64,000 nucleotides of DNA, taken from assembly GCA_900104565.1 (NCBI GenBank), contig LT629951.1, forward strand, positions 186,001 to 250,000, written 5' to 3'. Positions 3,001-58,621 of the stretch are shown one piece after another; positions within the stretch are counted from its first letter, which is position 1; each line of letters begins with the position of its first letter. The notes beneath the pieces were generated by a model. That model saw only the letters and a list, made by a program, of their open reading frames with translations, did no database searches and was not told where the DNA came from. Source of the stretch: Ruminococcaceae bacterium Marseille-P2935 (GTDB lineage: Bacteria; Bacillota; Clostridia; Oscillospirales; Ruminococcaceae). The position numbers were made by a program, and so were the translations under genes.

Positions 3001-3925
3001 TCACGCCGTCCGTCCAAACCACCACGCCGCTGCGCTGGGCGCTGATCTTTTCCGCTTTCACGGTTACAGAGCCTTTGAGGGCCTGGCTGGATGTGATGGT
3101 GAGCTGGCTGCCGTCTACGGAGAAATTCAGCCCTGCGGTGCTGCTGCTAAAGGTATAGTCCCCCAGTACACCGTTGGTATCTGTAAGTGTGGCAGAATAC
3201 TTTTCTCCATCCCATTTCAGCTCATAGGCTCCCGCGTCGGCGGTGCTGCTGAAAAAGCTGGGCAGCATGGTATGGCGCTTCACCGCGCTTTCAATCGCGG
3301 AATACTGGCTGAAAATCTGGCTGCGCAGGGGATGTTCCGCGCTGATATATTCCGTTACATTGTTTTTCCCCTGGGCGTTGGCGTCCACATGGTTGAACTG
3401 GCTGTCACGCTCGCCCACGATGGTTTCCCAGACTAAAAGCTGGGTGGCGATATATCCGGCCATCTGGTTCGCATGATCGGGGTTGCTGCTCATCCATGAG
3501 GTGCTGGCGTTGCCCTGCCACCCATAGGTCATAATGCGCCCGATATACTCTTTGATGGTGTTGGGTGGAATCGTCGGATTGAGGCTTGAGGGGTAGTTAT
3601 CCCAGAAATCCTCGCCGCGCCCCGTATATTGGTCGCCGGAATGGACGCCGATTCCAGGCTCGATACAGTAGATAGCGCGCCCGTTGTATGCGTCCTGGGT
3701 GTGGACGGAAAAGTGGGTGCCTGCGCTGGTTGACCATCCGCCCAGAAAGTTGAGGGCCGGATGGCCCCAGCCTGCTTTATTGGGGTCGTTTGCACGGGGA
3801 ATATCCACCATATACGTCGTCATGGTTTCTCCTGCGGCAAACGCCGTAACACCTGTCCCCGCAAACATACCCAGGCACATGAACAGCGCCATGAGCAGGG
3901 AGAGAGGCTTTTTCAGTGTTTTCAT
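1..3925 (-). CDS. Thioester/Cna-B repeat surface adhesin (C-terminus beyond window)
   Basis: One reading frame without stops runs from an ATG at 3925, behind a strong AAGGAGG site, to the left edge: about 1308 codons with the C-terminus missing. Residues 1-30 form a signal peptide ending AFAA. A thioester (TQXA) domain follows, with Cys87 in IYCIEPG and Gln162 in ATQLLVWE as the probable thioester pair. From about residue 335 come roughly ten Cna-B/SpaA-type beta-sandwich repeats. Most keep the E-box glutamate of isopeptide-forming domains (for example VKETKAPEGF, LVEVQAPYGY), but one has Gln there (IVHQTKGW). Such proteins are wall-anchored adhesins or pilin-like stalks that bind host or partner-cell surfaces. 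An LPxTG sorting signal would be expected to the left of the window. Location next to parAB suggests it is cargo of a conjugative element. Confident of class; the ligand is unknown. Confidence 0.9.
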   Translation of the reverse strand, partial: MKTLKKPLSLLMALFMCLGMFAGTGVTAFAAGETMTTYMVDIPRANDPNKAGWGHPALNFLGGWSTSAGTHFSVHTQDAYNGRAIYCIEPGIGVHSGDQYTGRGEDFWDNYPSSLNPTIPPNTIKEYIGRIMTYGWQGNASTSWMSSNPDHANQMAGYIATQLLVWETIVGERDSQFNHVDANAQGKNNVTEYISAEHPLRSQIFSQYSAIESAVKRHTMLPSFFSSTADAGAYELKWDGEKYSATLTDTNGVLGDYTFSSSTAGLNFSVDGSQLTITSSQALKGSVTVKAEKISAQRSGVVVWTDGVTGGGTQDFATYGTTVSDQMVGYLNLEVKTGNMKLIKTSEDGKVEGISFTITGEGYNATKTTNAAGEIDITDLNPGVYTVTEQSIDKYEPQATQRVTIVSGQTATVTFNNVLKRGSLEVTKTSEDGLAEGMTFHLSGTSLSGLPVDEYAVTDSTGVARFENVLIGTGYVLEEVDTPIRYVVPEAQTATIEWNEVTDKTVNNILKKFRVTVTKSDVETGTPQGDGSLAGATYGLYKGDTLIDSFTTDENGQFTTGYYVCDSDWTIREINPSEGYLVDSTIHHVGAEPELYTIELNDTANDVTEQIIKGDIAIIKHTDDGETGIETPEEGAEFQIYLKAAGSYDAAKDSERDVLVCDENGFAQSKKLPYGTYIVHQTKGWEGRELMDDFEVYISQDGQTYRYLINNAAFESYIKVVKVDAETGVTIPYAGAGFQIYRPDGSKVEMTFTYPTPTTIDTFYTNAEGYLVTPEKLEYGSGYSLVEVQAPYGYVLDSTPVYFDVTEDNSTEEGGVTVIEVTKSNMAQKGVIKVSKTGEVFSSVQENEGVYQPVYEVTGLPGAVFEITALEDVYTPDGTLRYSAGEVVDTITTGEDGTAQSQPLYLGKFQVKEIEFPHGMADTGENITEVELVYAGQEVEITETSASFYNQRQKALVTLDKVLEQDETFGIGMNGEITAVTFGLYAQEDITAADGSIIPADGLLEIVSVDENGQAMCKTDLPFGSFYLKELSTDSHYLLNGETFPFSFEYGGPSLAVVEIAANNGEAVSNELIRGEIRGLKTDENGTGLSRAVIGLFQSDETEFTAENALATATSAEDGSFSFADVPFGDWVLKELESPAGFILSDEVIPVTVEEDGQVVEISLANERIYGNLRLTKVDKDYPDNKLTGAEFEVYRDTNGNKELDEGDELLGKMEETSTGIYEMAHILYGGVFVKETKAPEGFLLDENAYYVEIAEHGKIYEVENEAGKGFVNAAQTGSLRIEKTSSDGKVEGFSFRVTGANGYDQTF

Positions 3926-3956
3926 CTTGTTACCTCCTTGAAATGGCCGCAAAAAA

Positions 3957-3978
3957 AGCACATCGCTTTGGATGTGCT
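3957..3978 (-). terminator. Leader terminator hairpin before adhesin gene
   Basis: Read on the minus strand, AGCACATC pairs with GATGTGCT around a 6-nt loop and is followed by seven T. It ends about 20 nt before the adhesin ribosome binding site, so it lies inside the likely 5' leader and could act as an attenuator. Confidence 0.6.
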
Positions 3979-4010
3979 GCTTACGGCTGGATTCGTTTAC
4001 GTTCTAAAAA

Positions 4011-4037
4011 AGAGAGGCGCGCCCGAATCGCTGCCTC
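4011..4037 (-). terminator. Terminator downstream of parB
   Basis: Minus strand GAGGC / GCCTC stem with a 14-nt loop, followed by TCTTTTTT. It lies about 200 nt after the parB stop and about 50 nt upstream of the second hairpin at 3957-3978. The rest of 3926-4232 has no recognisable gene. Confidence 0.5.
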
Positions 4038-4232
4038 TTATCCGCCCTTCCACACAACCCCACACGTCTGTTGAAAAGAAGCCTGCCAGGGCTTTCTATC
4101 ATCTAAGGCTCTGGATATATCTTCTTTTTTAGGCTGTTTAGGTTGTCTGGAAGGGGTGAGGTGTGGAGAGGGGAAACCTGCAAAGCCAGGCGTTTTCCTG
4201 CAAATGGGCGCACTTCTCCCTTGTGAGTAAGG

Positions 4233-39363: not shown

Positions 39364-39554
39364 AACAACCCCCTCTTTCTTTCAAAACTCATTTTACAAA
39401 CCAAGTTTATCACACGAAAAGCTGTGTTACAATCCGAAAAGCTTTATAATTTCTTAACATTTGATTCGTGCACGAGGTAGGCTTTTATGCTATACTTATC
39501 CTTGTCATAAAATGCTTGTCCTGCGCCAGCGGGGAATCTATGGGAGGAACATTC

Positions 39555-40616
39555 ATGCTTCAGCAACCGAACCGGTTAGGTGGCGGCTTTGTACCGGAAC
39601 AAAAAGAATATGTTTACATTCCCGGGGTAGGGTTTCCGCCTGCGCCCAAAGTTGCTCCGCAGATTATTGCGCTGAAACGCACCGCCATTTTGCTGGGAAC
39701 TTCACTGTTATTTTATTTGATTATCAGCATGCTGCTGCCAGTTGTTCTTTATGGGCTGGCCCAGCGTTTTATGTACCGCCTTATGGTGGGTGGTGTGGTC
39801 AGCTCAGGTATTTCCCTGGAATTTGTCTCCGAGCTAATTAGTACAGTGTGCTACCTGGTACAATTTTTGGTACCCTTTTGTGTATATTGCGCGGTGATGC
39901 ATATGCCCTCGGCGGTGGCTTTTCCGTCCAGAATACCCGATTCTTCGATTGCCTTGCCGGCAGTACCGATTGCTTTGGGCGTTTCGGTGATTGCAGGAAC
40001 AAGCGTAGGGGTAGTCCAACAGGTTTTCCAGCAGTTTGGGGTTGTTCCGGTAGCGCCTGATTATGCTCCTCCGGGGAATATGGCAGCTTTTGTGCTTTAT
40101 GCAGTGCAGCTGGCGGTTTTTGCCCCATTGGTGGAAGAATTTGTGTTTCGGGGTGCAATTATGCAATCTCTTCGCCAATTTGGCGATACCTTTGCGCTGG
40201 TAATCTCCTCCTTGATATTTGCAATGCTGCATATGAACATGGTACAGTTTCCCTATGCATTTTTGATGGGGCTAACCATTGGCTATTTTGTTTTGCGCAC
40301 CAGCTCTATCTGGACAGGAATTTTTATCCATATGGCAAACAATGGAATATCACTTGTTTTTACAATAGTAGACCCTGTGCTTGATGACAGTACGTATATA
40401 TTACTCTATTATATACTAAATGCAATACTGCTTCTTGCAGCCTTGCTCTGCGCAGTATTCATGCTGCGCAGCCATCGAAATATGTTTACCATGTCCAAAC
40501 AAGGCTCGGTGATTCAAGAAAAAATTAAATACCGGGTTTTCCTGTTATGCGTGCCTATGCTGGCGGTTATTGTTCTGTGCGGGTATTATATTCTGCAAAA
40601 TTTCCAAAAAGTATAA
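39555..40616 (+). CDS. CPBP-family intramembrane metalloprotease
   Basis: A 353-residue membrane protein; the start at 39555 follows GGGAGGAACA. A cytoplasmic Pro/Gly-rich N-terminus of about 45 residues precedes about eight helices. The Abi/CAAX protease motifs are intact: EEFVFRGAIM (EExxxR), FAMLHMN with the metal His, and a later HMANNG. Known relatives cleave prenylated or membrane peptides and can give bacteriocin self-immunity. Here no peptide or bacteriocin gene is adjacent, so a housekeeping role is equally possible. Confidence 0.88.
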   Translation: MLQQPNRLGGGFVPEQKEYVYIPGVGFPPAPKVAPQIIALKRTAILLGTSLLFYLIISMLLPVVLYGLAQRFMYRLMVGGVVSSGISLEFVSELISTVCYLVQFLVPFCVYCAVMHMPSAVAFPSRIPDSSIALPAVPIALGVSVIAGTSVGVVQQVFQQFGVVPVAPDYAPPGNMAAFVLYAVQLAVFAPLVEEFVFRGAIMQSLRQFGDTFALVISSLIFAMLHMNMVQFPYAFLMGLTIGYFVLRTSSIWTGIFIHMANNGISLVFTIVDPVLDDSTYILLYYILNAILLLAALLCAVFMLRSHRNMFTMSKQGSVIQEKIKYRVFLLCVPMLAVIVLCGYYILQNFQKV

Positions 40617-41080: not shown

Positions 41081-41542
41081 GTGGCTTCAGAAGATGATAA
41101 CCGTTTTATGGAGTATGCCATTTTGTTGGGAGAAAAAGCGGCAGCATTGGGCGAAGTACCGGTAGGTGCTGTGGTTGTGAAAGATAACGAGATAATCGGA
41201 GAAGGTTATAATCTGCGGGAAACAGGGAAAAACCCACTGACCCATGCCGAAATGATTGCCATTCATTATGCCTGTGAAAAACTGGGTGGCTGGAGACTTT
41301 CCGGCTGTACCCTTTACGTGACGCTGGAACCCTGCCCCATGTGTGCAGGCGCAATCGTAAACAGCCGGATTGACCGGGTAGTATTTGGCGCGCCAGACCC
41401 AAAAGCCGGCTGCTGCGGGTCGGTGATTAACCTGTTTGCTCTGCCGTTTAATCATAGGCCTGCCTTGTCAGCAGGGGTTTTGGAAGAGGAGTGCCGGGTA
41501 CTTCTGCAGCAATTTTTTAAACAGCTTCGCAAAAAAAATTAG
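41081..41542 (+). CDS. tadA: tRNA-specific adenosine deaminase
   Basis: A 153-residue zinc deaminase that converts the wobble adenosine of tRNA-Arg(ACG) to inosine. It starts GTG, 8 nt after AGGAGG. The zinc and proton-shuttle motifs are complete: HAE (His55, Glu57) in THAEMIAI, and PCPMCAG in LEPCPMCAGAI. Other conserved segments are GEVPVGAVVV and GAPDPKAGCCGS. Full family length. Often followed by dnaX in Firmicutes, but not here. Confidence 0.95.
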   Translation: MASEDDNRFMEYAILLGEKAAALGEVPVGAVVVKDNEIIGEGYNLRETGKNPLTHAEMIAIHYACEKLGGWRLSGCTLYVTLEPCPMCAGAIVNSRIDRVVFGAPDPKAGCCGSVINLFALPFNHRPALSAGVLEEECRVLLQQFFKQLRKKN

Positions 41543-41742: not shown

Positions 41743-41774
41743 CATATACTATTTGTAGGATTTCGAAAGAAAAA

Positions 41775-41808
41775 AGGAGCCTTTTGTGTAAAGGGCTCCT
41801 TTTTTTCG
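41775..41808. terminator. Bidirectional terminator between tadA and nitrilase-like gene
   Basis: AGGAGC(C)CTTT-type arm pairs with AAAGGGCTCCT, with A-run before and seven T after, so it serves both converging genes. Confidence 0.85.
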
Positions 41809-41818
41809 CGTAAATAAG

Positions 41819-42859
41819 CTATTTTTCGTAACTGCTTAAAAGATACTCTTTGTAAAATTCCGTATTGGTATCGTAGGTATAAATGTTGAAAACTTCCCCC
41901 TGCTTTTCCAGGTCCAAGCGCACCAATGCAAACGGCGGGGCCCCCTCTTCCTCTGTTACCCGTGCCATTACGCCGTCCTTCTCCCGTGTAATGGGAAATG
42001 GCGCCAAAACCGAGGAAACACCGTTGAAGTCAGTGCCGATCCGGCTTCCTCCCAGCAGGTGAGATTTTAAAATAAACAAATTGCCTTCGGCAGCCCGAAT
42101 CATAGAAAGATCGGTTTCGCCGGCAGGTTTTGCCCATCCGGTGCAAAGCAAACTGGTTCCCTGACGGGACAGTATTTTAACCGGTTCAAAGTATTGCAGG
42201 TCATTCCCTGCAAGCATTGCCGCCCGGCCAAGTTCACAATCAAAGGCTTCCAGCTTTTTGCCCGGCTCTATTCCCAGCATTTTTTCCACAGAAGATAAAT
42301 GAATTTTGTCGTAGGTGGACACAATTTCTCCGGAGGAACTGAAAAAATAAAACCGATTGTAAATTTTATCGTCCTCCATTACCAATGCACTGCCGGCCAT
42401 AATAGGAATAGCAAACCGGCCGGAGAGCTGTTCCATACTATACAAAAAAGCATCTAATACAGGGGCGATTAAATTATCCGCCATAGAGCGGAATTCTTCC
42501 TTTAAGCCCGAATCGCCGGCACGAATCAGCTCCGCCAGTTTAAGCGCTGTTTTTTCAAAAGAAGGCAGAGCGAAGGCCGGCAGTACACCGCTGTATTCGG
42601 GAAAACAAATGAGCTGTGCACCGCCGCCTGCCGCTGCGCGCACAAGCTGTTCCAACTGCGATAGATAATCCCCAATCGAAGAATAATTTTGGATTTCCAG
42701 GGGACAGACAGCCACCTTTACGTTATTGGGAGAGACAAACTCTAAATTTTTACAGGGGTCTATATGCAGACGGTCCATACTTTTAGAAATTTTAGATATT
42801 GATATTTTAGAGGTCATCAAATATTGTAAAAAGCCTAAGCTAAAATCATTTTTTGCCAT
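41819..42859 (-). CDS. Nitrilase-fold protein lacking the catalytic cysteine
   Basis: A 346-residue member of the carbon-nitrogen hydrolase superfamily. The N-terminal 45 residues are an extension; the fold starts at VKVAVCPLEI. Of the Glu-Lys-Cys triad, Glu88 (LICFPEYSG) and Lys185 (STYDKIHLSS) are present. At the nucleophile position the sequence reads GRAAMLAGNDLQYFEP, placing Gly218 where Cys is normal. It is therefore probably not a hydrolase on its own; it may bind ligand, act as a regulator, or pair with the neighbouring nitrilase-fold protein that keeps Cys. Start follows GGAGC. It lies 96 nt after that neighbour on the same strand. Confidence 0.8.
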   Translation of the reverse strand: MAKNDFSLGFLQYLMTSKISISKISKSMDRLHIDPCKNLEFVSPNNVKVAVCPLEIQNYSSIGDYLSQLEQLVRAAAGGGAQLICFPEYSGVLPAFALPSFEKTALKLAELIRAGDSGLKEEFRSMADNLIAPVLDAFLYSMEQLSGRFAIPIMAGSALVMEDDKIYNRFYFFSSSGEIVSTYDKIHLSSVEKMLGIEPGKKLEAFDCELGRAAMLAGNDLQYFEPVKILSRQGTSLLCTGWAKPAGETDLSMIRAAEGNLFILKSHLLGGSRIGTDFNGVSSVLAPFPITREKDGVMARVTEEEGAPPFALVRLDLEKQGEVFNIYTYDTNTEFYKEYLLSSYEK

Positions 42860-42955
42860 GCTATGCTCCGTTCTGCCGTATGCTGCGGCTGATTTTTAAA
42901 AGGTTCGAAGGCACATAGGGTACGATAGACGAATGACTAAGATTATAAAATAGCC

Positions 42956-43654
42956 CTACCGTTCCAGTTCGGCGGCATAGGCCCGGTAAACGTCCGGGCG
43001 GCAGCCTTGCTCCAATTTACTGCGCCGTGCCATTATGGCCGGGTCATCCAGGTCAATCGAAAGCATCACCGGCAGGTCGGTTCCAAGAGGCAGCAAAAAC
43101 TGCTCCTCTCGCCTGGCAGTTTCTTTTCCAGCCAGAATACAGCGGCTGTTATTATTGACGTTAACTACAGTTGCCCCATAGGACATGGCAGCATTATATG
43201 CCCCCTGTAAAATGGTGTGCATACCGTAATCGACAAATTCAATGTATTGAGAGGAGATAATCAGCTTTGCACCCCGCATGACGGCACTTCGCAGCACTTC
43301 CGGGTGATAAATATCCACATCAACACACAAAAAAATACGGCCAAACGGGGTGTCGTATAAATCCAGGTCGGTAGAGCGCTTAAGCGCGGTTTGGTAGGTA
43401 AGGTTTAAATGGGTGGCACGCTGCACCCCAATTACCTGGCCGTCCGGCCCTATGAATGCCATACATAAAAAGTTGGTGGCAACAAATCGGCCGGTTACTA
43501 AATACACATTGTATTCTTTTGCATAATTAATACATTTTTTAATATATCGAGGCGCCTCATATTCGGCGGTATAATTTTTAATGTCAGAAAAAACCACCAT
43601 CTGAGTTCCCTCAAGGGGTGGCTGAAATGGCTGTGTTAGCCCCAACGACAGCAT
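42956..43654 (-). CDS. Short nitrilase-fold protein keeping only the catalytic cysteine
   Basis: A 232-residue carbon-nitrogen hydrolase-like protein; the start at 43654 follows AAAGGAG. Cys110 sits in the right context (FGRIFLCVDVDIYHPEVLR). The general-base Glu position reads MVVFSDI (Asp24), and the Lys position reads QRATHL (Ala80). The N-terminus is shorter than usual for the family. The missing residues are exactly those retained by the downstream paralogue at 41819-42859, so the two may form a mixed complex or be diverged non-enzymes. Substrate unknown. Confidence 0.75.
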   Translation of the reverse strand: MLSLGLTQPFQPPLEGTQMVVFSDIKNYTAEYEAPRYIKKCINYAKEYNVYLVTGRFVATNFLCMAFIGPDGQVIGVQRATHLNLTYQTALKRSTDLDLYDTPFGRIFLCVDVDIYHPEVLRSAVMRGAKLIISSQYIEFVDYGMHTILQGAYNAAMSYGATVVNVNNNSRCILAGKETARREEQFLLPLGTDLPVMLSIDLDDPAIMARRSKLEQGCRPDVYRAYAAELER

Positions 43655-43884
43655 GATATCCGGCTCCTTTCTTTTTTTGCGGTGTGTATCAAGTTCCGGC
43701 AGGCATTGTCGGAATGAAAAACCTCTACGTTTTAAAAGGTTTTTCTCTTGCTTGTACTTCTTATTATACAGGAAAGCAACCCTCCGGACAACGCAAAATA
43801 ACCCCTTCTTCGGCAAATTTCATAAATTTTTTATGAGGTTTTCCTCCCCCATCTGTAAGTGAGGGCAGTTATGCAGCAAAAGGG

Positions 43885-44202
43885 TTAAAGGTTCCCTACC
43901 CCAATGCCAAGTGATGCAGGAAGAAAAAAACAAATAAGGAAAGCTTTTGTTTTTTCTGGCAGGAATAGCGTTTGAAAATAATGGCTGTTTTCAAAAGAAG
44001 TAACGGGCAAATTATAGAACATGGAAGGTACGGTTTTTGCAGTAAGCTCCTGTGTAAGATGAGCGGCATTCAAGCATGGCGGTACAATGAGGTTTGGCTC
44101 TGCAGCTGACAGGTACTGAAAAATGCCCCGCATGATGATTGTTGGTTTGCCAATCATCCCGTCAATCACTAACGCATTAGGTCTGTTTTTTGCTTCTGCC
44201 AT
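43885..44202 (-). CDS. Hypothetical protein, doubtful
   Basis: A 105-residue frame starting at 44202 with a weak site (AAGGTAAGGG, 7-8 nt upstream). Composition is protein-like near the start (NALVIDGMIGKPTIIMRGIFQYL) and hydrophobic at the end (FLICFFLPASLGIGVG), but no family is recognised. It stands between two better-supported genes on the same strand. It could be a truncated gene or non-coding. Confidence 0.3.
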   Translation of the reverse strand: MAEAKNRPNALVIDGMIGKPTIIMRGIFQYLSAAEPNLIVPPCLNAAHLTQELTAKTVPSMFYNLPVTSFENSHYFQTLFLPEKTKAFLICFFLPASLGIGVGNL

Positions 44203-44478: not shown

Positions 44479-45966
<1,488 letters not shown>

Positions 45967-46182
45967 TCAAATCTGCACGGTTGCTTTGGGTGCAAATCTT
46001 GAATCTTTACAAAACAAGAAGCTTTTGTACCACTATTTTGCGGTAACGCAAAACCGGTAACTGGCAATTCAAAACGGAACTGCTCGTGAAGGGAAAGTAC
46101 CGTCCCAAAATCCCTGCTTTCTTTCCGCGCTGAAAAAGCAGGAGACACAGTATCAATTATGCGCGGAGGAAAGGTGATTATT

Positions 46183-46626
46183 ATGGCTTTAACCCCAAAA
46201 GATTATGAACAGATGAATAAAAAGGCGTCTCCCCCCACTAAAAGCTATCTAACAATTCCCATGGCATTTTTAATAGGTGGGCTTATTTGCACATTAGGGC
46301 AATTTTTAACCAACCTGTATACTATGCTGGGGCTGGTAAAAGAAATCGCCTCTGCAAGCACATCGATTACCCTGATATTTTTGGCGGCGCTGCTGACCGG
46401 GCTGAACGTATTTGACAATATTGCTAAGGTAGCTGGAGCCGGTACATTGGTACCCATTACGGGCTTTTCCAATGCAGTGGCAGCCCCTGCGCTGGAATTT
46501 AAAAGTGAGGGGCTGATTTTAGGCGTAGGTGCTAAAATGTTCACCATAGCGGGGCCGGTTATTGTGTATGGCACCGTTGCATCGGTAATTTATGGGATTA
46601 TTCTATATGTTTTTAAGCTTTATTAA
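46183..46626 (+). CDS. spoVAC: Stage V sporulation protein AC
   Basis: A 147-residue membrane protein of the SpoVA complex, with about four helices. In known spore formers SpoVAC acts as a mechanosensitive channel in the spore inner membrane and passes dipicolinic acid during sporulation and germination. Family segments: IGGLICTLGQFLTNLY, GLNVFDNIAKVAGAGTLVPITGFSNAVAAPA and FKSEGLILGVGAKMFTIAGPVIVYG. The start at 46183 follows AAAGGTG; an upstream in-frame ATG is less well placed. First of a three-gene set with spoVAD and spoVAE. Confidence 0.93.
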   Translation: MALTPKDYEQMNKKASPPTKSYLTIPMAFLIGGLICTLGQFLTNLYTMLGLVKEIASASTSITLIFLAALLTGLNVFDNIAKVAGAGTLVPITGFSNAVAAPALEFKSEGLILGVGAKMFTIAGPVIVYGTVASVIYGIILYVFKLY

Positions 46627-46791
46627 AAATGTTTCTAAAACTTAAGCCCTTTAAACGGTGCTGGTGAAAAATAGGGCCTTTACCGGCTTTTTAAGGAATC
46701 ACTATGCCATAACCGTTTTAATCGAACGAATTGGGCTGAGGCACAAAAATTAAATTTTACATGCCGCGAAACGGCAGAATGGAGAGATTAT

Positions 46792-47808
46792 ATGGCAACC
46801 CGAGTTGGAAAATACACAATCCGTATGGACAACCCACCCTCAATCATCGGCTTTGCCGCTGTAGGTTCCAAAATGGAATCAGAGGGGCCGCTGGCGCAGA
46901 ATTTTGATCTGCTCTGTCCGGATTCCACCCTGGGGGAACAGACCTGGGAAAAGGCAGAAAGCCGCCTGCAGAAGGACGCGGTAAATACCGCTCTTTCCAA
47001 ATGTCAGCTTTCCCCGCCTGATATTGATGTCATTTTTGCAGGAGACCTGCTGAACCAGTGTATTGGTTCTACCTATGGGCTGAGGGATTTGGGAATCCCT
47101 TTTGTAGGCCTTTATGGCGCCTGCTCCACCATGGCCGAAAGTTTGAGTATGGCATCCCTGTTCATTGAAGGGAAAATGGCGTGCCGCACACTGGCGGTTA
47201 CCTCTTCTCACTTCTGTTCGGCCGAACGGCAGTTCCGTTTTCCGCTGGAGTATGGGGGCGTGCGCACCCCAACCGCCCAGTGGACAGCCACTGCTTCAGG
47301 CGCAGCAGTCGTGGGGGAAAAAGTTTCTCCGCCCTACGTACGTCAGGTTTGCCTGGGCTGTATTGAGGATTTAGGAATTAAGGATGCCAATAACATGGGT
47401 GCGGCAATGGCGCCGGCAGCAGCTAAAACCATTCAGCGGTTTTTTGAAGACACCTATACCAATGCCGACAACTACGACCTTATTCTTACCGGGGACCTGG
47501 GGACGGTGGGTTCTGACCTAATGATTCAGTTGTTAGAGAAAGAAAATTATCAGGTTCGTGCCAAACACAAGGATTGCGGCATGATGCTTTATGATTTAAA
47601 CAATCAGGATGTAGGAGCAGGCGGGTCCGGCTGCGGCTGCAGTGCCAGCGTGCTTTGTTCTACCATTTTGCCTCAAATTAAAAACGCACAGTTAAACGAT
47701 GTATTGTTTATAGCAACCGGTGCGCTGCTAAGTCCCACTTCCGTACAGCAAGGGGAGTCTATACCGGGTATCGCCCACCTGGTGCACCTATCCTCCCGGG
47801 AAAAATAA
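46792..47808 (+). CDS. spoVAD: Stage V sporulation protein AD
   Basis: A 338-residue thiolase-fold protein that binds dipicolinic acid on the spore inner membrane. Family motifs: PPSIIGFAAVGSKMESEGPL near the start, FAGDLLNQCI, GLYGACSTMAE and VTSSHFCSAERQFRFP. Start ATG follows GGAGAG. It lies 165 nt after spoVAC, a wider gap than in Bacillus. Full length. Confidence 0.95.
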   Translation: MATRVGKYTIRMDNPPSIIGFAAVGSKMESEGPLAQNFDLLCPDSTLGEQTWEKAESRLQKDAVNTALSKCQLSPPDIDVIFAGDLLNQCIGSTYGLRDLGIPFVGLYGACSTMAESLSMASLFIEGKMACRTLAVTSSHFCSAERQFRFPLEYGGVRTPTAQWTATASGAAVVGEKVSPPYVRQVCLGCIEDLGIKDANNMGAAMAPAAAKTIQRFFEDTYTNADNYDLILTGDLGTVGSDLMIQLLEKENYQVRAKHKDCGMMLYDLNNQDVGAGGSGCGCSASVLCSTILPQIKNAQLNDVLFIATGALLSPTSVQQGESIPGIAHLVHLSSREK

Positions 47809-48057
47809 GACAGGTGTTTTCATTTCCCTATGGGGCGCAAGTGAAAAAACTGAAGTAAGCAATGTAAATAATACAACTGGAGATTAGAGCAGGCAAAAAT
47901 AGGATTCGATTGCCCATTGACAGGCAGCAAGGCATACTGGCAAAACAACGCAGCACATTTTTGGGTGCCTGCCGGTAAGTACATTTTTTTACGAGGGTTG
48001 GCTGCCGGTTTATCGGGTCGTATAAGGTGTTCAAGCAATAGAAAGGAATTATGGATT

Positions 48058-48426
48058 ATGGAAGTCTTTATGGAATATCTGAAAGCATTTTTGGTTGGCG
48101 GATTGTTCTGTGCTGTTGGCCAGGTGTTAATCGATTATACCAAACTTACTCCTGCGCGCATTCTGGTGTCCTATGTGGTGGCAGGCGTTTTACTTGGTGC
48201 TCTGGGCGTTTATAAACCCCTGGTGGAATTTGCCGGGGCGGGTGCCACGGTACCGCTTACTGGTTTTGGTTACCTGCTTTCTACCGGGGTAAAAAAAGCA
48301 GTGGCCGAAAAAGGCCTGATTGGTGTGCTTACAGGCGGTTTAACAGCATCGTCTGCAGGTATTACGGCAGCTATTTTATTCGGTTTAATTGTTGCGCTCG
48401 TTTTTAAACCAAAAGATAAAAGCTGA
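48058..48426 (+). CDS. spoVAE: Stage V sporulation protein AE
   Basis: A 122-residue membrane protein, third SpoVA subunit, with about four helices. It is distantly similar to SpoVAC: VGGLFCAVGQVLIDYTKLTPARILV, GVYKPLVEFAGAGATVPLTGFG and KGVKKAVAEKG-like segments. The start at 48058 (MEVFMEYLK) follows AAAGGA; Met5 is an alternative. It lies 249 nt after spoVAD. No spoVAA, AB, AF or second AE was found next to it, matching the minimal clostridial AC-AD-AE set. Confidence 0.92.
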   Translation: MEVFMEYLKAFLVGGLFCAVGQVLIDYTKLTPARILVSYVVAGVLLGALGVYKPLVEFAGAGATVPLTGFGYLLSTGVKKAVAEKGLIGVLTGGLTASSAGITAAILFGLIVALVFKPKDKS

Positions 48427-48600
48427 AAAAGCAAACATTTTATGTGGGCAAATTCAGCGTATGGAATGTTTTTTTACCCAATAAGCCCTTCGAAGCACCC
48501 ACTATACAATACCAATTCTCTGGCTGGCGCAAATACAGTTTTTCGCAGTGTATATTACCAGGTGCATACGGCTTTTGCCATGCGGAATTTGCACAAAAAA

Positions 48601-48626
48601 AGCCTGCCCAAAACATCGGGCAGGCT
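48601..48626 (+). terminator. Terminator-like hairpin after spoVA genes
   Basis: AGCCTGCCC / GGGCAGGCT 9-bp stem with an 8-nt loop. A-run before, only TAGTGT after, so it is more convincing on the minus strand. It lies about 175 nt after spoVAE. Confidence 0.55.
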
Positions 48627-48817
48627 TAGTGTATTATTAATAATTCCAGTTGGGATAAATGAACATTCTGCAACATCCCTGTAATGCATGGTAAGCAGGG
48701 TTCCCCAACCTTTACGAGTGGTTCACAGGGCGTCCCCTATATCATTACCAGCGGCAGCGCGCTCCGGGTTTTACCAGGGAGGTGCCAGGCAAGAAGGGCT
48801 TATGGGTACCAATAACA

Positions 48818-48991
48818 TTAGGCCAGGCCACAATCTATATAATCTTTCCATTTTTCCTCATGTGCTTTATTGGCAGCCATGCGGTAAACAATGTAGACAG
48901 TGGCCATAATTAAAGAGGCCATCGCCATCATTAAGGGTACCGCCACAGTGAGCACGGTGACGGGAGAAGTAGCTTTGCTCTGCTTTTTCAT
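48818..48991 (-). CDS. Small single-pass membrane protein
   Basis: A 57-residue protein starting at 48991 behind AAGGATGG. Basic, Ser/Thr-rich N-terminus (MKKQSKATSP), one helix at about residues 11-37 (VTVLTVAVPLMMAMASLIMATVYIVY is cut here to its hydrophobic core), and a charged tail with HEEKWKDYID. It lies 87 nt beyond the rpsT stop on the same strand. No family recognised; it may be sporulation-linked from its surroundings. Confidence 0.55.
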   Translation of the reverse strand: MKKQSKATSPVTVLTVAVPLMMAMASLIMATVYIVYRMAANKAHEEKWKDYIDCGLA

Positions 48992-49078
48992 GGAGCACCA
49001 TCCTTTTGCGCCAGATATAACAAAAAAGCAGCCCAATGAACCATCGGCCTGCTTGATTTTGTTCGGTTTGAGTGGAAT

Positions 49079-49339
49079 CTAGCCAACCTTGTTCAGCTTG
49101 CAAACCAGGCCAGATTTTTTTCTTGCAGCGCAGTTCTTGTGCAGAAGACCTTTAGCGCAGGCCTGATCGATCTTTTTCACTGCAAGTTTAACAGCAGCCT
49201 CTTTATCGGCAGATCCGTTTTCCATAGCCAGCTCGGCTTTTTTGATTACGGTCTTTAAGTTACTGCGAACCGCTTTATTCTGCATGGTTTTGGCTTCAAT
49301 CACCTTAACCCTTTTTTTTGCGGACTTGATGTTTGGCAT
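49079..49339 (-). CDS. rpsT: 30S ribosomal protein S20
   Basis: An 86-residue helical ribosomal protein starting at 49339 behind GAAGGAGGTG. Family N-terminus MPNIKSAKKRVKV, then NKAVRSNLKTVIKKAE, and the conserved IDQACAKGLLHKNCAARKKS near the C-terminus. Transcribed away from gpr, as in many Firmicutes where rpsT and gpr are divergent neighbours. Confidence 0.97.
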   Translation of the reverse strand: MPNIKSAKKRVKVIEAKTMQNKAVRSNLKTVIKKAELAMENGSADKEAAVKLAVKKIDQACAKGLLHKNCAARKKSGLVCKLNKVG

Positions 49340-49375
49340 AAATTCCACCTCCTTCAGATCATGACAGTACAAGTT

Positions 49376-49404
49376 ATATTAACATTTTTTACGTTAAATT
49401 GCAA
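49376..49404 (-). promoter_or_regulatory. Sigma-A promoter of rpsT
   Basis: Minus strand TTGCAA (49404-49399), 17-bp spacer, TAATAT (49381-49376). The leader to rpsT is about 30 nt. Confidence 0.75.
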
Positions 49405-49574
49405 CTGAAATTATAAAAAAACTTTTATTTTTCAAATATTTCCTTCTAACCCACCCATTTTGGACAGAGATTTTAGTGAAGCAGTCGTTATAGCGAACAG
49501 CCAACAGCAGCCTGCAAGATGAAGTTAGCAGGAAAAAAGAAAATATAGGATTGCACAGAAAGGATGAAACATAC

Positions 49575-50462
49575 ATGAATTCTCGCACCGACTTAGCAAT
49601 TGAACAAACTGAAGAACTGGAAGGCCGACTGCCCCAGGGGGTGCGGATGGAACAGCACCAGATTCAGGGCGTTATGGTAAACCGGGTCTATATTGAAAGT
49701 GAAGCTGGTGCAAAAGCGTTGGAAAAGCCAAAGGGCTGTTATGTCACAATAGATATAGCCCCGCTGTGGTCTTCGGTAGAGTATGGAGCCGAAGAGGTGG
49801 ACGCCCTGGCGGAAGAAATCCGCACCCTGCTTCCTCAGGAAGGGGTGATTTTGGTGGTTGGACTTGGCAATAGTAATATTACCCCGGATGCCCTGGGCCC
49901 AAAGGCCATCGGCCAGATTTTAGCTACCCGGCATATTCCAGACGAAGTAAAAAAAGAAGGTGGGCTTACCGAGCTTCGCGCGGTTGCGGCGCTGGCTACG
50001 GGTGTTTTAGGGCAAACAGGCATTGAAAGCGGAGAAATTATACATTCAGTGGTAGAGCAGATACAGCCGGCCGGCGTCATAGTAATTGATGCATTGGCCG
50101 CTAAAAGCGTTGAACGGTTGGGCAGAACAATTCAAATTGCAAACTCGGGAATTTCACCCGGGTCGGGCGTTATGAACCGCCGAAAAGAACTAAGCCAAAA
50201 TACACTGGGGGTTCCGGTTGTATCAATTGGCATTCCAACCGTAGTGGATGCTGTTACGGTTGTGTGGGATATGATGGTTCTTAACAATCAGGAGCGGGAA
50301 GAGCTAAGCAAAAAAATTCAGCCGGGCGGCAGCGCCATGATGGTGACCCCACGGGAGGTAGACCAATTGATTGAACGTGGGGCAAAGGTGCTTTCTATGG
50401 CGGTAAACCGGGCATTGCAGCCTTCCATTTCGGCAGAGGATTTAACCTACCTGCTTTCCTGA
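49575..50462 (+). CDS. gpr: Germination protease GPR
   Basis: A 295-residue peptidase of family A25 that degrades small acid-soluble DNA-binding proteins when spores germinate. The start at 49575 follows AAAGGA. The N-terminal TDLAIEQTEELE matches the zymogen propeptide region and resembles the SASP cleavage site. The core has VGLGNSNITPDALGPKAI, VAALATGVLGQTGIE, VIVIDALAAKSVERLGRT and SGISPGSGVMNRRKEL. Made in the forespore; a sigma-G promoter is expected but was not clearly seen. Part of the rpsT-gpr-spoIIP-lepA-hemW neighbourhood. Confidence 0.96.
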   Translation: MNSRTDLAIEQTEELEGRLPQGVRMEQHQIQGVMVNRVYIESEAGAKALEKPKGCYVTIDIAPLWSSVEYGAEEVDALAEEIRTLLPQEGVILVVGLGNSNITPDALGPKAIGQILATRHIPDEVKKEGGLTELRAVAALATGVLGQTGIESGEIIHSVVEQIQPAGVIVIDALAAKSVERLGRTIQIANSGISPGSGVMNRRKELSQNTLGVPVVSIGIPTVVDAVTVVWDMMVLNNQEREELSKKIQPGGSAMMVTPREVDQLIERGAKVLSMAVNRALQPSISAEDLTYLLS

Positions 50463-50491
50463 CGGCATATTTTACCATAAGGCAGAATAGA

Positions 50492-50585
50492 CTTTGGTAT
50501 AGTCAACAAACTACGCAATAGTTTGTGGGCGGCAGACGAAGCCTTCCGTCGCACCAAAGTACAGATGTTGACTATGTATCCAAAG
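50492..50585. repeat. MITE-like inverted-repeat element between gpr and spoIIP
   Basis: Ends CTTTGGTATAGTCAACA (50492-50508) and the inverse of TGTTGACTATGTATCCAAAG (50566-50585) match over a 10-bp perfect core (ATAGTCAACA / TGTTGACTAT) plus an outer CTTTGG. Inside, CAAACTA / TAGTTTG forms a small hairpin. The 94-bp unit codes for nothing. The whole gap 50463-50910 has no gene. Confidence 0.6.
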
Positions 50586-50910
50586 AAGAGTTGCCTGTGA
50601 GGGGATCGCGGAGCAACTGCCGGATGCGCTCGAAGCGGCAGCGGTTTTGAAGCTTTTGGTGTATGACACGCCCTATTTATTGCCCGGATAGGGCCGCAGC
50701 ACAATGGCCAATGGCAGATTGTGCAGTCAGCGCTAAGTATGTGTTATGCACTGCCCTCGCTGCTGGCTATGTACAGCAGTATCGGTACAGAATGCTGGGA
50801 GTTAACAGGCTAAAAGGCCGATTAGGGCCTTGCTGCCGGTCACTTTCTTCCCTTTGGGAACTGCTGTGGGCATTGGGATGTCGAATCTTGCCTGTTTGGA
50901 GGTTTCAGCC

Positions 50911-52059
50911 TTGAGAAGACGATCATCATCGGGGCGGAGGAAGGCTCCTTTCCTACGCCTTTTTTCTTTTGTTCTTACCGCAGGTTTTTTATTATTTGGC
51001 ATAATAAAGCTTGCCCCTATGGGTCTGCAGCTGATTGAAAAAGCGGCGCTCGCGTCTACCGTGGCAACCATGCCAGATGCGGGTCTTTCCCTTTTGGAAA
51101 AACGGTTCGCGCCGGATGTGTCCAAGCCTGGGGAATCAAAACCTCCGGAGGATTCAGGGCCCCCCTCTTCCCCGCCACAAAGTTCACAGCAGCCAGACTC
51201 GCAACAACCCGGCACCTCCTCTGGCCCTCCAAAAGAAATTCCTGAGGTGGACCCCGAATACCGCGGTACTATTTTAGCCGAAAATTTGGCAGGGTCAGAT
51301 AACGGCAGTTACCTAAAATATGGCGCAGGGTACTTAAAAAATTATACCAACCTTAGTTTTGACCAAATCCGCAGTATTTTAGACCAGCCGATGCAGCTGA
51401 AAATCAAAAATGACGACCAGCCCAAGGTATTAATTGTGCATACCCATACCACCGAGGCATACGAAGAATATGACCGCGATTTTTACGATACCCGGTATAC
51501 CTTTCGCTCCACCGACCCGGAGAAAAACATGACTAAGGTTGGCGAAGTGCTTTGCCAAACCCTCAACGAGATGGGTGTGCCTACCATACAGGATAAAACC
51601 CTGCACGATTACCCGTCTTACAATGGTTCTTATGACCGGAGCAGGGAAACCATAAATGACTACCTGAAGAAATACCCCTCCATTCAGGTGGTGCTGGATG
51701 TTCACCGGGATGCGATTCAGCGGGAGGAGACTTTGGTCGTAAAGGCGGTAGCAGAGGTACAAGGGCAGAAGGCTGCCCAGCTAATGATGATTGCCCCTTG
51801 TGACGACGGTACCAATACCATTCCCAAATGGCGCGAAAACCTGCGCTTTGCCGCCGCGTTCCAAAGCCAGATTGAAACCGATTATCCACAGCTGACCCGC
51901 CCCATTTTCTTTAGCTACCGGCAGTATAATATGAATGTGACGCCCTATTCCCTTTTGCTGGAATTTGGATCCCATGGGAATACTTTGGAGGAAAATCTCG
52001 TCACCGCCCGTATGGTGGGCGAATCTTTGGGCAAACTTCTCAAAGAGAACATGCAATAG
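50911..52059 (+). CDS. spoIIP: Stage II sporulation protein P
   Basis: A 382-residue cell-wall hydrolase (amidase and endopeptidase) that, with SpoIID and SpoIIM, thins septal peptidoglycan and drives engulfment. It starts TTG at 50911, 8 nt after GGAGG. A basic N-terminus (RRRSSSGRRK) and one helix (about 20-38) are followed by a Pro/Ser/Gln-rich linker (about 80-115), then the catalytic domain with zinc-type His in LIVHTHTTEAY and VLDVHRDA, and LLEFGSHGNTLEE near the end. Made in the mother cell and also the forespore in known species. Confidence 0.94.
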   Translation: MRRRSSSGRRKAPFLRLFSFVLTAGFLLFGIIKLAPMGLQLIEKAALASTVATMPDAGLSLLEKRFAPDVSKPGESKPPEDSGPPSSPPQSSQQPDSQQPGTSSGPPKEIPEVDPEYRGTILAENLAGSDNGSYLKYGAGYLKNYTNLSFDQIRSILDQPMQLKIKNDDQPKVLIVHTHTTEAYEEYDRDFYDTRYTFRSTDPEKNMTKVGEVLCQTLNEMGVPTIQDKTLHDYPSYNGSYDRSRETINDYLKKYPSIQVVLDVHRDAIQREETLVVKAVAEVQGQKAAQLMMIAPCDDGTNTIPKWRENLRFAAAFQSQIETDYPQLTRPIFFSYRQYNMNVTPYSLLLEFGSHGNTLEENLVTARMVGESLGKLLKENMQ

Positions 52060-55065: not shown

Positions 55066-55139
55066 AATCCTGTTAGCGCAAAGTGGGTTTGCGCAAAGTC
55101 AAAACCTTGCGGTATACCGCATATTTCGGAGGTTTATTT

Positions 55140-56945
55140 ATGTCCGACAGACGTAAAAACATTCGCAACTTTTGTATTATTGCTCATATTGACCACGGAA
55201 AAAGCACCCTGGCCGACCGTATTTTAGAAAAAACCCAGACAGTAGCGGCGCGGGATATGGAAGAGCAAATTTTAGATAACATGGAAATCGAACGCGAACG
55301 CGGCATTACCATCAAAGCCCGGGCGGTACAGTTAAATTATAAGGCTAACGATGGCCAGATGTATGCCTTTAATTTGATTGACACCCCGGGGCATGTTGAC
55401 TTTAACTACGAGGTGTCGCGCTCTTTAGCTGCTTGTGAAGGTGCTATTCTGGTGGTAGATGCCTCGCAGGGGATTGAAGCGCAGACCCTGGCCAACACCT
55501 ACCTTGCCATCGAGCATGACCTGGAAGTTGTGCCGGTGGTCAATAAAATTGACCTGCCGGCGGCAGACCCGGAGCGTGTATGCCATGAAATCGAGGATAT
55601 TATTGGTATTCCCGCTATGGACGCCCCCCGTATTTCGGCCAAAACCGGTGTGAATATTGAAGAGGTGTTAGAGCGGATTGTCACCGATATTCCGGCCCCA
55701 AAAGGGGATGATGACAAGCCGCTGCAGGCACTTGTTTTTGACAGCTATTACGACAGCTATAAAGGCGTTATTGTGTATGTGCGAGTTATGGAGGGCGTGG
55801 TACGCCCCGGCATGACCATTCGAATGATGGCCAGCGGCGCCGAATTTACAGTGGTAGAAACCGGCGTAATGGGAGCTACTTCCCTGGTACCCACCCCAGA
55901 GGTTTATGCCGGCCAGGTTGGCTACATTACCGCCAGCATTAAAACGGTACGGGACACGACCGTAGGCGATACAGTAACCGATGCCGACAACCCCTGTGAG
56001 CATGCCTTGCCCGGTTACCGCAAGGTAAACCCCATGGTGTTTTCGGGCATTTACCCGGCCGATGGAGCCAAATACCCCGACCTGAGGGACGCTTTAGAAA
56101 AATTACAGCTTAACGATGCCTCCCTCACCTTTGAACCGGAGACATCCGTAGCGCTGGGGTTTGGGTTCCGCTGTGGTTTTTTGGGCCTGCTTCATATGGA
56201 AATTATTCAGGAGCGGCTGGAACGGGAATATAATCTGGATTTGATTACCACTGCCCCCAGCGTGGAATATAAAATTCATTTGACCAACGGCGAAATGATA
56301 ACCATTGACAACCCTACCAACTACCCTGACCCGGCGTTGATAGCGGGTGCAGAGGAGCCTTTTGTTAAGGCGAGCATTTTTACCCCCACCCAGTATATTG
56401 GCAATATCATGGAGCTTTGCCAGGAACGCCGGGGCGTGTACCTGGACACCAAATACCTGGATGCCGACCGGGTGGAGCTGCATTACGAACTGCCCTTAAA
56501 CGAAATTGTTTACGACTTTTTCGATTCCTTAAAATCCCGCACCAAGGGCTATGCTTCCTTTGACTACGAGCTTTGCGGCTACCGTCCCTCTAAACTGGTT
56601 AAGCTGGATATTATGCTGAACGGCGAGGTTGTGGATGCACTGTCCTTTATTGTATTCAGCGACAACGCATACCCCCGTGCCCGCAAAATGGCCGAAAAGC
56701 TGAAGGAGCATATTCCCCGGCAGCTGTTTGAGGTGCCTATTCAGGCGGCAGTAGGCGGCAAGATTATTGCCCGCGAAACGGTAAAGGCTATGCGCAAGGA
56801 CGTATTGGCCAAATGTTACGGCGGAGATATTACCCGGAAGAAGAAACTGCTGGAAAAACAAAAAGAGGGTAAAAAGCGTATGCGCCAGCTGGGTACTGTG
56901 GAAGTGCCGCAGGAGGCGTTTATGGCAGTGCTTAAGCTTGACTGA
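55140..56945 (+). CDS. lepA: Elongation factor 4 (LepA)
   Basis: A 601-residue translational GTPase that back-translocates or remodels stalled ribosomes. The start at 55140 follows CGGAGG; a longer in-frame ATG would be less well placed. G1 [10 protein letters not shown]2/RGIT, G3 DTPGHVDF, G4 NKID and G5 SAKTG are all present, followed by EF-G-like domains II, III and V and the LepA-specific C-terminal domain (SDRRKN start; [18 protein letters not shown] and [17 protein letters not shown] near the end). Same conserved neighbourhood as spoIIP and hemW. Confidence 0.97.
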
Positions 56946-56972: not shown

Positions 56973-57494
56973 ATGGCCACAGTTTCTTGGAAAAGAATTT
57001 TGAAAGAATGGATCATACCATTTGGTATAGAAATTATTGTTGTTCTTTTACTGATTAAATACGTTTTCTTTTTTGTAACAGTACCAACCGGGTCGATGAT
57101 CCCCACCATTAACGAAGGGGACTGGCTGTTTGCCACCCGGGTGCATAACCCCGAAAACCTGAAACGAGGCGACATTGTTGTGTTCGATTCAGAAGAGCTT
57201 GGGGTTACCCTGATCAAACGGCTAGTTGGGCTGCCTGGTGAAAAGGTTGAGGTTGACGGTACTGGCGCCGTGTTCATCAACGGAGAAAAGCTGGAGGAAC
57301 CATATGTTGCGCATCCATCCGGGTTGGAAGGAAGCTTTGAGGTGCCCGAAGGCTGCTATTTGTTTATGGGGGACAACCGGGCAGGCTCTAACGATGCACG
57401 TTATTGGGAGCAGCCTTATATCCCGGCCGATAAGATTATTGGGCATGCTCACTTTACACTTTTCCCCTTTACCCGTTTCGGTATACTGAAATGA
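56973..57494 (+). CDS. lepB: Signal peptidase I
   Basis: A 173-residue S26 membrane peptidase that removes signal peptides of secreted proteins. A single N-terminal helix (about 13-36) is followed by the Ser-Lys dyad: Ser41 in PTGSMIPT and Lys82 in TLIKRLVGLPGE. Box E GDNRAGSNDARYW is intact. It lies 27 nt after lepA and its stop overlaps the hemW ATG by 4 bases. In many Firmicutes hemW follows lepA directly, so lepB is an insertion in this gene order. Confidence 0.94.
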   Translation: MATVSWKRILKEWIIPFGIEIIVVLLLIKYVFFFVTVPTGSMIPTINEGDWLFATRVHNPENLKRGDIVVFDSEELGVTLIKRLVGLPGEKVEVDGTGAVFINGEKLEEPYVAHPSGLEGSFEVPEGCYLFMGDNRAGSNDARYWEQPYIPADKIIGHAHFTLFPFTRFGILK

Positions 57495-58621
57495 CAGGGC
57501 TTATTAAAAAACAGGATGATTTGGGCATTTACCTTCATGTTCCTTTTTGTTTATCCAAATGCCCTTACTGCGATTTTTATTCCCTGGTTTCCACCCCGGA
57601 ACTTTGGGAGAAATATACCAGCAAGCTAAGGGGGTTAATCTGCTGCAACCCGTTTACAGGGCGGCAGGTGTCTACTTTGTATTTTGGGGGAGGCACTCCT
57701 TCGGTGCTGGGGGCCGGGCATTTAAAGAGGCTGGTCACAGCGGTGAAAGAAAGTTTTTGCCTTCAGGAAGATGCAGAGATTACCTTGGAAATGAACCCCG
57801 GGGACGCTTCGCGCGAGTTTTACCAGCAGATGAGGGCCAGCGGGGTAAACCGCATCTCCATGGGGCTGCAGGCCGCTCAGCCAGATGCCCTGCAGCAGCT
57901 GGGGCGCCGTCATACCCGAGAGGATGCCGCACAGGCGGTAACCTGGGCCAGACAGGCTGGGTTTGACAATCTATCGCTGGATTTAATGCTTGCTACGCCT
58001 GGGCAGACCCAGCGGCAGGCAGCAGAATCCATAGAATTTTGCGCAGGCCTTGGGGTGGATCATATTTCAGCCTATTTATTAAAGGTAGAACCGAATACTC
58101 CCTTTGACAGCAAGGAGATCACCTCCTTGCTGCCGGGGCCTGATGAAGCCGCGGCGCTTTATTTGTTTGCTGTAGAAAAGTTAAATCAACTCGGTTATCA
58201 GCAGTACGAAATTTCAAACTTTGCCCGGGAAGGTAAAATATCCCGGCATAATACCCGGTACTGGCTTGGGCAGGACTACCTGGGCCTTGGCCCGGCTGCG
58301 CACTCGCTGGTCGATGGTAAGCGGTTTTACTTTCCCCGGGATTTAACTGGTTTTTTAGCGGCCCGTGACCCTATGGAACTGGTGATTTCAGACGGAGAGG
58401 GCGGGACGGAAGAAGAGTTTATTTTGCTGCGGCTGCGGCTGAGCAGCGGAATCAGCTGGGACGAGTACCGCGAACGGTTTAAAGGTAGCCCGGAACGGCT
58501 GGTTCAAAAAGCAGCACCCATGGCAAAAGCAGGGCTTGCCGTACTGGACGACACCCACCTGGCCCTTACAGCCCAGGGCTTTTTAGTTTCAAACGAGATT
58601 ATTACCCGTCTGCTTTCATGA
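57491..58621 (+). CDS. hemW: Heme chaperone HemW (radical SAM)
   Basis: A 376-residue radical SAM protein related to HemN. The cluster motif is CLSKCPYCDFYS (Cys20, Cys24, Cys27), a CX3CX2C spacing. YFGGGTPS, EMNPGD and the family segment ISMGLQ follow. HemW proteins bind heme and pass it to target enzymes instead of oxidising coproporphyrinogen. The start overlaps lepB (ATGA), so the two are translationally coupled. C-terminal HemN_C-like domain from about 300. Confidence 0.93.
   Translation: MTGLIKKQDDLGIYLHVPFCLSKCPYCDFYSLVSTPELWEKYTSKLRGLICCNPFTGRQVSTLYFGGGTPSVLGAGHLKRLVTAVKESFCLQEDAEITLEMNPGDASREFYQQMRASGVNRISMGLQAAQPDALQQLGRRHTREDAAQAVTWARQAGFDNLSLDLMLATPGQTQRQAAESIEFCAGLGVDHISAYLLKVEPNTPFDSKEITSLLPGPDEAAALYLFAVEKLNQLGYQQYEISNFAREGKISRHNTRYWLGQDYLGLGPAAHSLVDGKRFYFPRDLTGFLAARDPMELVISDGEGGTEEEFILLRLRLSSGISWDEYRERFKGSPERLVQKAAPMAKAGLAVLDDTHLALTAQGFLVSNEIITRLLS

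Follow-up and report, generated by a model that had tools for sequence, protein, structure and literature searches.

Do two neighbouring genes for nitrilase-fold proteins, neither with the usual catalytic residues in full, encode one divided enzyme or a pair that has given up the chemistry? The question arises at a locus of Ruminococcaceae bacterium Marseille-P2935, which we analyzed within a stretch of 64,000 nucleotides (the window; contig LT629951.1, positions 186,001 to 250,000). An initial annotation had placed a short gene, here S, directly ahead of a long one, here L, and had read their missing residues as complementary losses that a heteromer could make good. ORF coordinates bear out the arrangement, with S upstream of L and both on the minus strand (Table 1).

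Table 1. Features at and around the S-L locus (coordinates within the window)
Feature	Position	Strand	Basis or remark
S, short nitrilase-fold protein, 232 aa	42956-43654	−	ORF, PF00795 match
L, long nitrilase-fold protein, 346 aa	41819-42859	−	ORF, PF00795 match
Gap from S stop to L start, 96 bases	42860-42955	−	start codons chosen by script
Promoter-like site TTGTCC-17-TATAAT upstream of S	43763-43791	−	consensus match only
Hairpin and T-run directly after L, possible terminator	41770-41806	−	by eye; absent from terminator scan list
Cytidine-deaminase-family gene	41081-41542	+	Pfam match
Gene of a cluster whose representative matches an Rce1-like protease	39468-40616		cluster match
Adenylosuccinate synthetase	44479-45894		Pfam match
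Compact sporulation cluster: spoVAC, spoVAD, second SpoVAC/SpoVAEB gene, germination protease (gpr), spoIIP	46090-52059		
lepA	55083-56945		farther on, past sporulation cluster
HemN-like radical SAM gene	57491-58621		farther on, past sporulation cluster

The distance between the two genes ranges from −8 to +41 bases in 34 other adjacent pairs and is 96 bases in the window, all with script-chosen start codons. Promoter-like sites occur eight times in the region, compared with 4.3 in shuffled sequence. The cytidine-deaminase-family gene is presumably tadA. Across the 45 loci compared, the Rce1-like protease (cluster c1) is a neighbour in 17, the deaminase (c2) in 14 and spoVAD (c3) in nine, and these commoner neighbours name no pathway. 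A 105-residue open frame at 43885-44202 on the minus strand, between the adenylosuccinate synthetase gene and S, gave zero Pfam matches and may not be a gene.

Both proteins match the carbon-nitrogen hydrolase family PF00795, L with 67.3 bits and S narrowly, with 25.5 bits against a cut-off of 23.2; the profile is matched by 32 of the 44 aligned S sequences at E values up to 0.01. Automatic PF00795 annotation will label both genes carbon-nitrogen hydrolases. In the member shown, the scores fall far below the NCBIfam cut-offs for named enzymes. A profile-profile comparison of L with S (hhalign) gave a probability of 99.4%. In the AlphaFold2 model discussed below, the L half has the nitrilase fold (Z 26.9 to 1ems, rmsd 2.4, 249 residues aligned). 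The S half is outside the listed fold matches of the joined model, and its predicted secondary structure fits the nitrilase fold. The model gives L a helical N-terminal extension at about residues 4-30, with helices at roughly 4-18 and 21-30 before the fold begins, whereas S runs from a strand at 2-7 straight to a strand at 19-22 and lacks the helix found between the first two strands of L. Known members of the superfamily, such as mouse Nit2 (2w1v), C. elegans NitFhit (1ems) and N-carbamoylputrescine amidase (TIGR03381), thus share profile similarity with both S and L, and their fold with L. S and L differ from them in having no cysteine on the nucleophile column, in the absence of the lysine from S, in the extra N-terminal helices of L and in being a two-gene system.

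In the window's L, Glu88, Lys185 and Gly218 align with the catalytic Glu, Lys and Cys positions of a comparison set of 17 further nitrilase-like proteins, in which those columns hold Glu in 17, Lys in 15 and Cys in 17, in agreement with the initial annotation. Glu occupies the Glu88 position in 28 of 35 L sequences and is replaced in the other seven. Of the 35, 33 retain Lys185, as do all seven of a further set of L sequences. The nucleophile column holds Gly in 27, Glu in four and Ala in four of the 35, with Cys in none; it is free of Cys in the further seven too, and in all six of these that are readable at the Glu position, from genus g76, that residue is Ala. Glu225 of L is kept.

S is where our reading departs from the earlier one, which had assigned Asp24 and Ala80 to the Glu and Lys positions and had taken Cys110 for a surviving nucleophile. 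The letters are as claimed, and Ala80 does lie on the Lys column, which holds Ala in 39, Gly in three, Ser in one, Cys in one and Lys in none of 44 S sequences (a forty-fifth, L069, is cut by its contig end and was omitted from this alignment). Asp24 is the likely equivalent of Glu, with weaker alignment behind it: it follows strand 2 in the AlphaFold2 model as Glu88 does in L, and its region falls in a gap of the joint alignment in all 44 S sequences. The position, in this weakly aligned part, holds Asp in 23, Asn in six, Glu in four, Thr, Gly and Pro in three each and Ser in two. Cys110, on the other hand, is out of register, since four alignments place Asp112 on the nucleophile column instead. 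A joint MAFFT alignment with the 17 nitrilase-like proteins has Asp there in 43 of 44 S sequences and Gly in one; hhalign of the S and L profiles sets Gly218 of L opposite Asp112; the S profile compared with solved enzymes by HMMER again has Asp112 at the nucleophile in each of the four printed alignments (e.g., with 2w1v); and a HMMER profile of 16 ordinary nitrilases gives Asp in 42, Gly in one, Leu in one and a gap in one of 45 matched stretches. The S sequence at this site is L-C-V-D-V-D-I-Y-H-P-E, against I-C-x-D-x-x-F-P-E in most of the comparison nitrilases. The D-V-D-x-x-x-P block of S aligns gaplessly, Asp114 and Pro118 are each present in 44 of 44 sequences, and counting back from these two anchors brings the nucleophile column to Asp112. 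Position 110, two residues ahead of that column, holds Cys in 26, Leu in nine, Ala in six, Ser in two and Ile in one of the 44, and a nucleophile-column Cys is found in none of them. On this register, S has lost both the lysine and the nucleophile, the latter now Asp, and L has kept Lys185 and usually Glu88 with no nucleophile Cys, so that neither protein has a complete Glu-Lys-Cys triad and the two sets of losses do not complement each other.

The pairing itself is real and conserved. A profile search at E values up to 1e-8 found S in 43 of the 396 genomes sampled from the host family, spread over 17 of 126 genera. L was found in 42 of the 396 at 223 bits or more, with the next match at 75 bits; at E values up to 1e-8 the L profile reaches 106 genomes, including ordinary nitrilases and S itself, and it is the 223-bit line that separates L. 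Both genes are present in 42 genomes, S only in one, L only in none and neither in 353 (Fisher 4.5e-56, uncorrected for kinship). In 35 of the 43 S genomes they are adjacent, S then L, a recurrence that exceeds chance. Distance matrices of S and L agree over 35 pairs (r 0.88, reached in 0 of 2000 shuffles), statistics that shared ancestry inflates. An order-level search found strong S matches in two of 394 genomes and strong L matches in two of 280; these are the same two family members, plus an L-like protein of 208 bits in genome G445. Five further genomes matched S weakly (42-50 bits) and were taken as ordinary nitrilases for comparison. A scan of named genomes, which reaches close relatives only, returned seven loci titled Negativibacillus, Oscillospiraceae, Clostridia or Bacillota.

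Exceptions to adjacency are few. The six genomes of genus g76 carry both genes on different contigs, and the stretch surrounding S is free of L (S at L053, L057, L080, L085, L088 and L090; L at L107-L112, with Glu replaced by Ala in all six). At L088 the S gene adjoins spoVAC/spoVAD clusters. The pair of genome G088 is split between contig ends. Genome G075, rated 100% complete, has S (G075:C1:948126-948740, locus L078) and no recognisable L. This near-complete genome counts against the two-subunit reading given below, and it offers a natural test of any role for S alone.

We used AlphaFold2 to ask how the two proteins might fit together, with S, linker and L read as a single chain and stops entered as Gly; this was a single-chain run with no negative control. 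The underlying alignments (A5 and A6) held 11 read-through pairs and 28 long-only sequences. A 72-row alignment (A4) was excluded from folding because it misplaced about 128-145 residues of each unpaired short sequence onto the long half. For the fused window pair the mean pLDDT was 90.2 and the pTM 0.89, and the only stretch below 50 was the linker, at 235-267. A divergent second pair (L072), with 33% identity along the fused chain, gave a mean pLDDT of 91.3 and again a pTM of 0.89. Independently placed halves would cap the pTM near 0.6, a figure reasoned from the larger half's share (346 of 612 residues) and not from a control run, so both runs place the halves confidently. S and L thus probably form a physical complex, a predicted heterodimer, and the earlier proposal of a heteromer made from two proteins without a complete triad holds up to that extent.

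At a probability of roughly 60%, we consider the pair a non-hydrolytic heterodimer of nitrilase-fold pseudoenzymes that serves as a sensor, carrier or scaffold; the larger part of this probability attaches to the non-hydrolytic heterodimer, the smaller to the role. Since neither S nor L has the nucleophile Cys, the complex should not hydrolyze amides or nitriles by the nitrilase mechanism, and pocket residues conserved without a nucleophile (Lys185 of L, Asp112 of S) point to binding over hydrolysis, as far as conservation is a guide. On this account the gene for an active nitrilase-superfamily amidase would have been duplicated in tandem. In the order of events that we infer, one copy, S, would then have lost its catalytic residues and its first helix; the other, L, would have lost the nucleophile and kept the pocket lysine and mostly the glutamate. 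The products, usually encoded together, are predicted to pair as one unit, and the partner of the complex would most likely be either a small ligand, an amide or a carboxylate, or else a protein. The second option of the initial annotation, a sensor built from two dead enzymes, is the kind of answer that we tend to favour. Described pseudoenzymes mostly act alongside a live partner. If the heterodimer reading is true, the pair is a clean bacterial case of an enzyme complex outliving its chemistry.

Relatives within and outside the family bear on this origin. A tree from a quick search recovers S as a single clade (SH-aLRT 100) and L as another (85); the G445 protein groups with L (94), and all three are separated from a set of 16 other nitrilases (95). 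At the site two positions ahead of the Lys column, Gln is found in 34 of 35 L sequences (Tyr in the window's), in 42 of 44 S sequences and in the G445 protein. The same position holds His or Tyr in 14 of the 17 comparison sequences, with the G445 protein among the other three. G445 is a single MAG from outside the host family, 60% complete, whose contig ends after 4185 bases (L126, G445:C72:1-4185). On its minus strand are two overlapping nitrilase-like frames, 2736-3935 and 3842-4183. The downstream frame is complete and has Glu, Lys and Cys (in F-P-E, R-K and V-C-M-D). The upstream frame, truncated by the contig end, is similar to the C-terminal portion of L (33 bits, with an E value of 1e-10 in a tiny search). 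These frames (L125/L126) are like S-L in order, and the G445 protein is the nearest relative of L found outside the family (208 bits); they differ in that the complete protein has retained the whole Glu-Lys-Cys triad and belongs to another family. A full triad in a pair from another genome had been named beforehand as grounds against complementary losses, and the G445 frame supplies one in part, from one fragmentary MAG. By these sequences, the loss of the nucleophile from both members may have been preceded by a tandem arrangement in which one triad or more was still complete, with G445 a possible ancestral form. This intact-triad relative could supply a before-and-after comparison.

A variant of the favoured account is rather doubtful but deserves mention: the nitrilase pockets may have been rebuilt, starting from an active tandem pair such as G445 hints at, for a cysteine-free function that needs both Asp112 of S and Lys185 of L. 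That function would be either ligand sensing, with the two pseudoenzymes as a switch, or a reaction not yet recognised. As a point against the favoured account, the conservation of Lys185 and the near invariance of Asp112 could signal such unrecognised chemistry.

We think it unlikely that the pair serves sporulation or germination. The window pair does lie near spoVAC, spoVAD, a second SpoVAC/AEB gene, gpr and spoIIP, and SpoVAD is present in 42 of 43 S genomes compared with 303 of 353 others (Fisher 0.028, uncorrected). However, SpoVAD is found in 345 of 396 family genomes anyway, genome completeness differs between the groups, and both the deaminase and the Rce1-like protease are commoner neighbours than spoVAD. 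The sole S genome without SpoVAD, G239, is 70% complete. The sporulation link is a weak one.

Catalysis of a non-cysteine reaction, through Asp112 of S or through Lys185 and Glu88 of L, strikes us as quite improbable. Asp112 is constant in 43 of 44 sequences while position 110 drifts, and Lys185 is nearly as steady (33 of 35, then 7 of 7). The glutamate is not, being replaced in seven of 35 L sequences and in all six readable g76 sequences; mapped on the S tree, it has changed five times or more. We know of no nitrilase-fold enzyme with an Asp nucleophile.

A targeted literature search for nitrilase pseudoenzyme pairs or paired homologues found no such pair by title, with most subscription papers outside its reach. 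The closest precedents we found are the sorghum heteromeric nitrilases and the dead-paralogue activators of trypanosomatids. The original paper on the former is reportedly that of Jenrich et al. (2007). According to a later source, two sorghum nitrilase paralogues, NIT4A and NIT4B2, form one active heteromeric nitrilase (PMC5154151). S-L would likewise be a heteromer of paralogues, as predicted, but the sorghum complex is active and both S and L are without a nucleophile. In trypanosomatids, deoxyhypusine synthase and AdoMetDC each keep a dead paralogue as a needed partner (PMC3663545). There one subunit is catalytic, whereas by the known mechanism none is in S-L, and the proteins are unrelated.

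These prozymes invite the suggestion that S-L activates a third, active nitrilase in the cell, which we regard as distinctly unlikely. The host genome has at least one further nitrilase-like match (G000:C7:95814-96269), and dead paralogues that activate enzymes are known from the trypanosomatid work (PMC3663545). Against this, the S and L profiles matched nothing beyond the pair in the 45 loci compared (E up to 1e-3). Within the pair itself, neither S nor L has the nucleophile of a catalytic subunit.

The division of one hydrolase site between two chains, Cys110 from S with Glu88 and Lys185 from L, was the initial proposal for this locus and is now very improbable. In known nitrilase sites, Glu, Lys and Cys come from one chain. 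All three letters are present in the window pair, and a confident arrangement of the S and L halves is predicted for two pairs. But the nucleophile column holds Asp112, with Cys110 two residues off and drifting. Cys110, Glu88 and Lys185 occur together in only 16 of 41 pairs (45 S sequences minus four, three of them without a known L and one with L cut off). Nor do the residues travel together: Glu is kept in 16 pairs and lost in seven where Cys110 is kept, and kept in 12 and lost in six where Cys110 is lost (Fisher p = 1.0). Mapped on the S tree, Cys110 has undergone at least four changes and the partner Glu at least five, and independent pairs are few. The model of the L072 pair is equally confident even though its S has Leu at 110. 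On register and conservation together, we reject a complementary active site. Decay into functionless relics, which the lost catalytic residues and the low identity of relatives to the window proteins (18-46%) might suggest, is also highly improbable and disfavoured by uninterrupted frames, near-invariant columns in both proteins and joint retention over 17 genera, even after separation onto different contigs in g76.

Another tandem arrangement was seen in genome G173, which has S and L and also, at locus L116 (G173:C44), neighbouring nitrilase-like frames at 1210-2103 and 2115-3152 on the minus strand, both with Cys on the nucleophile column.
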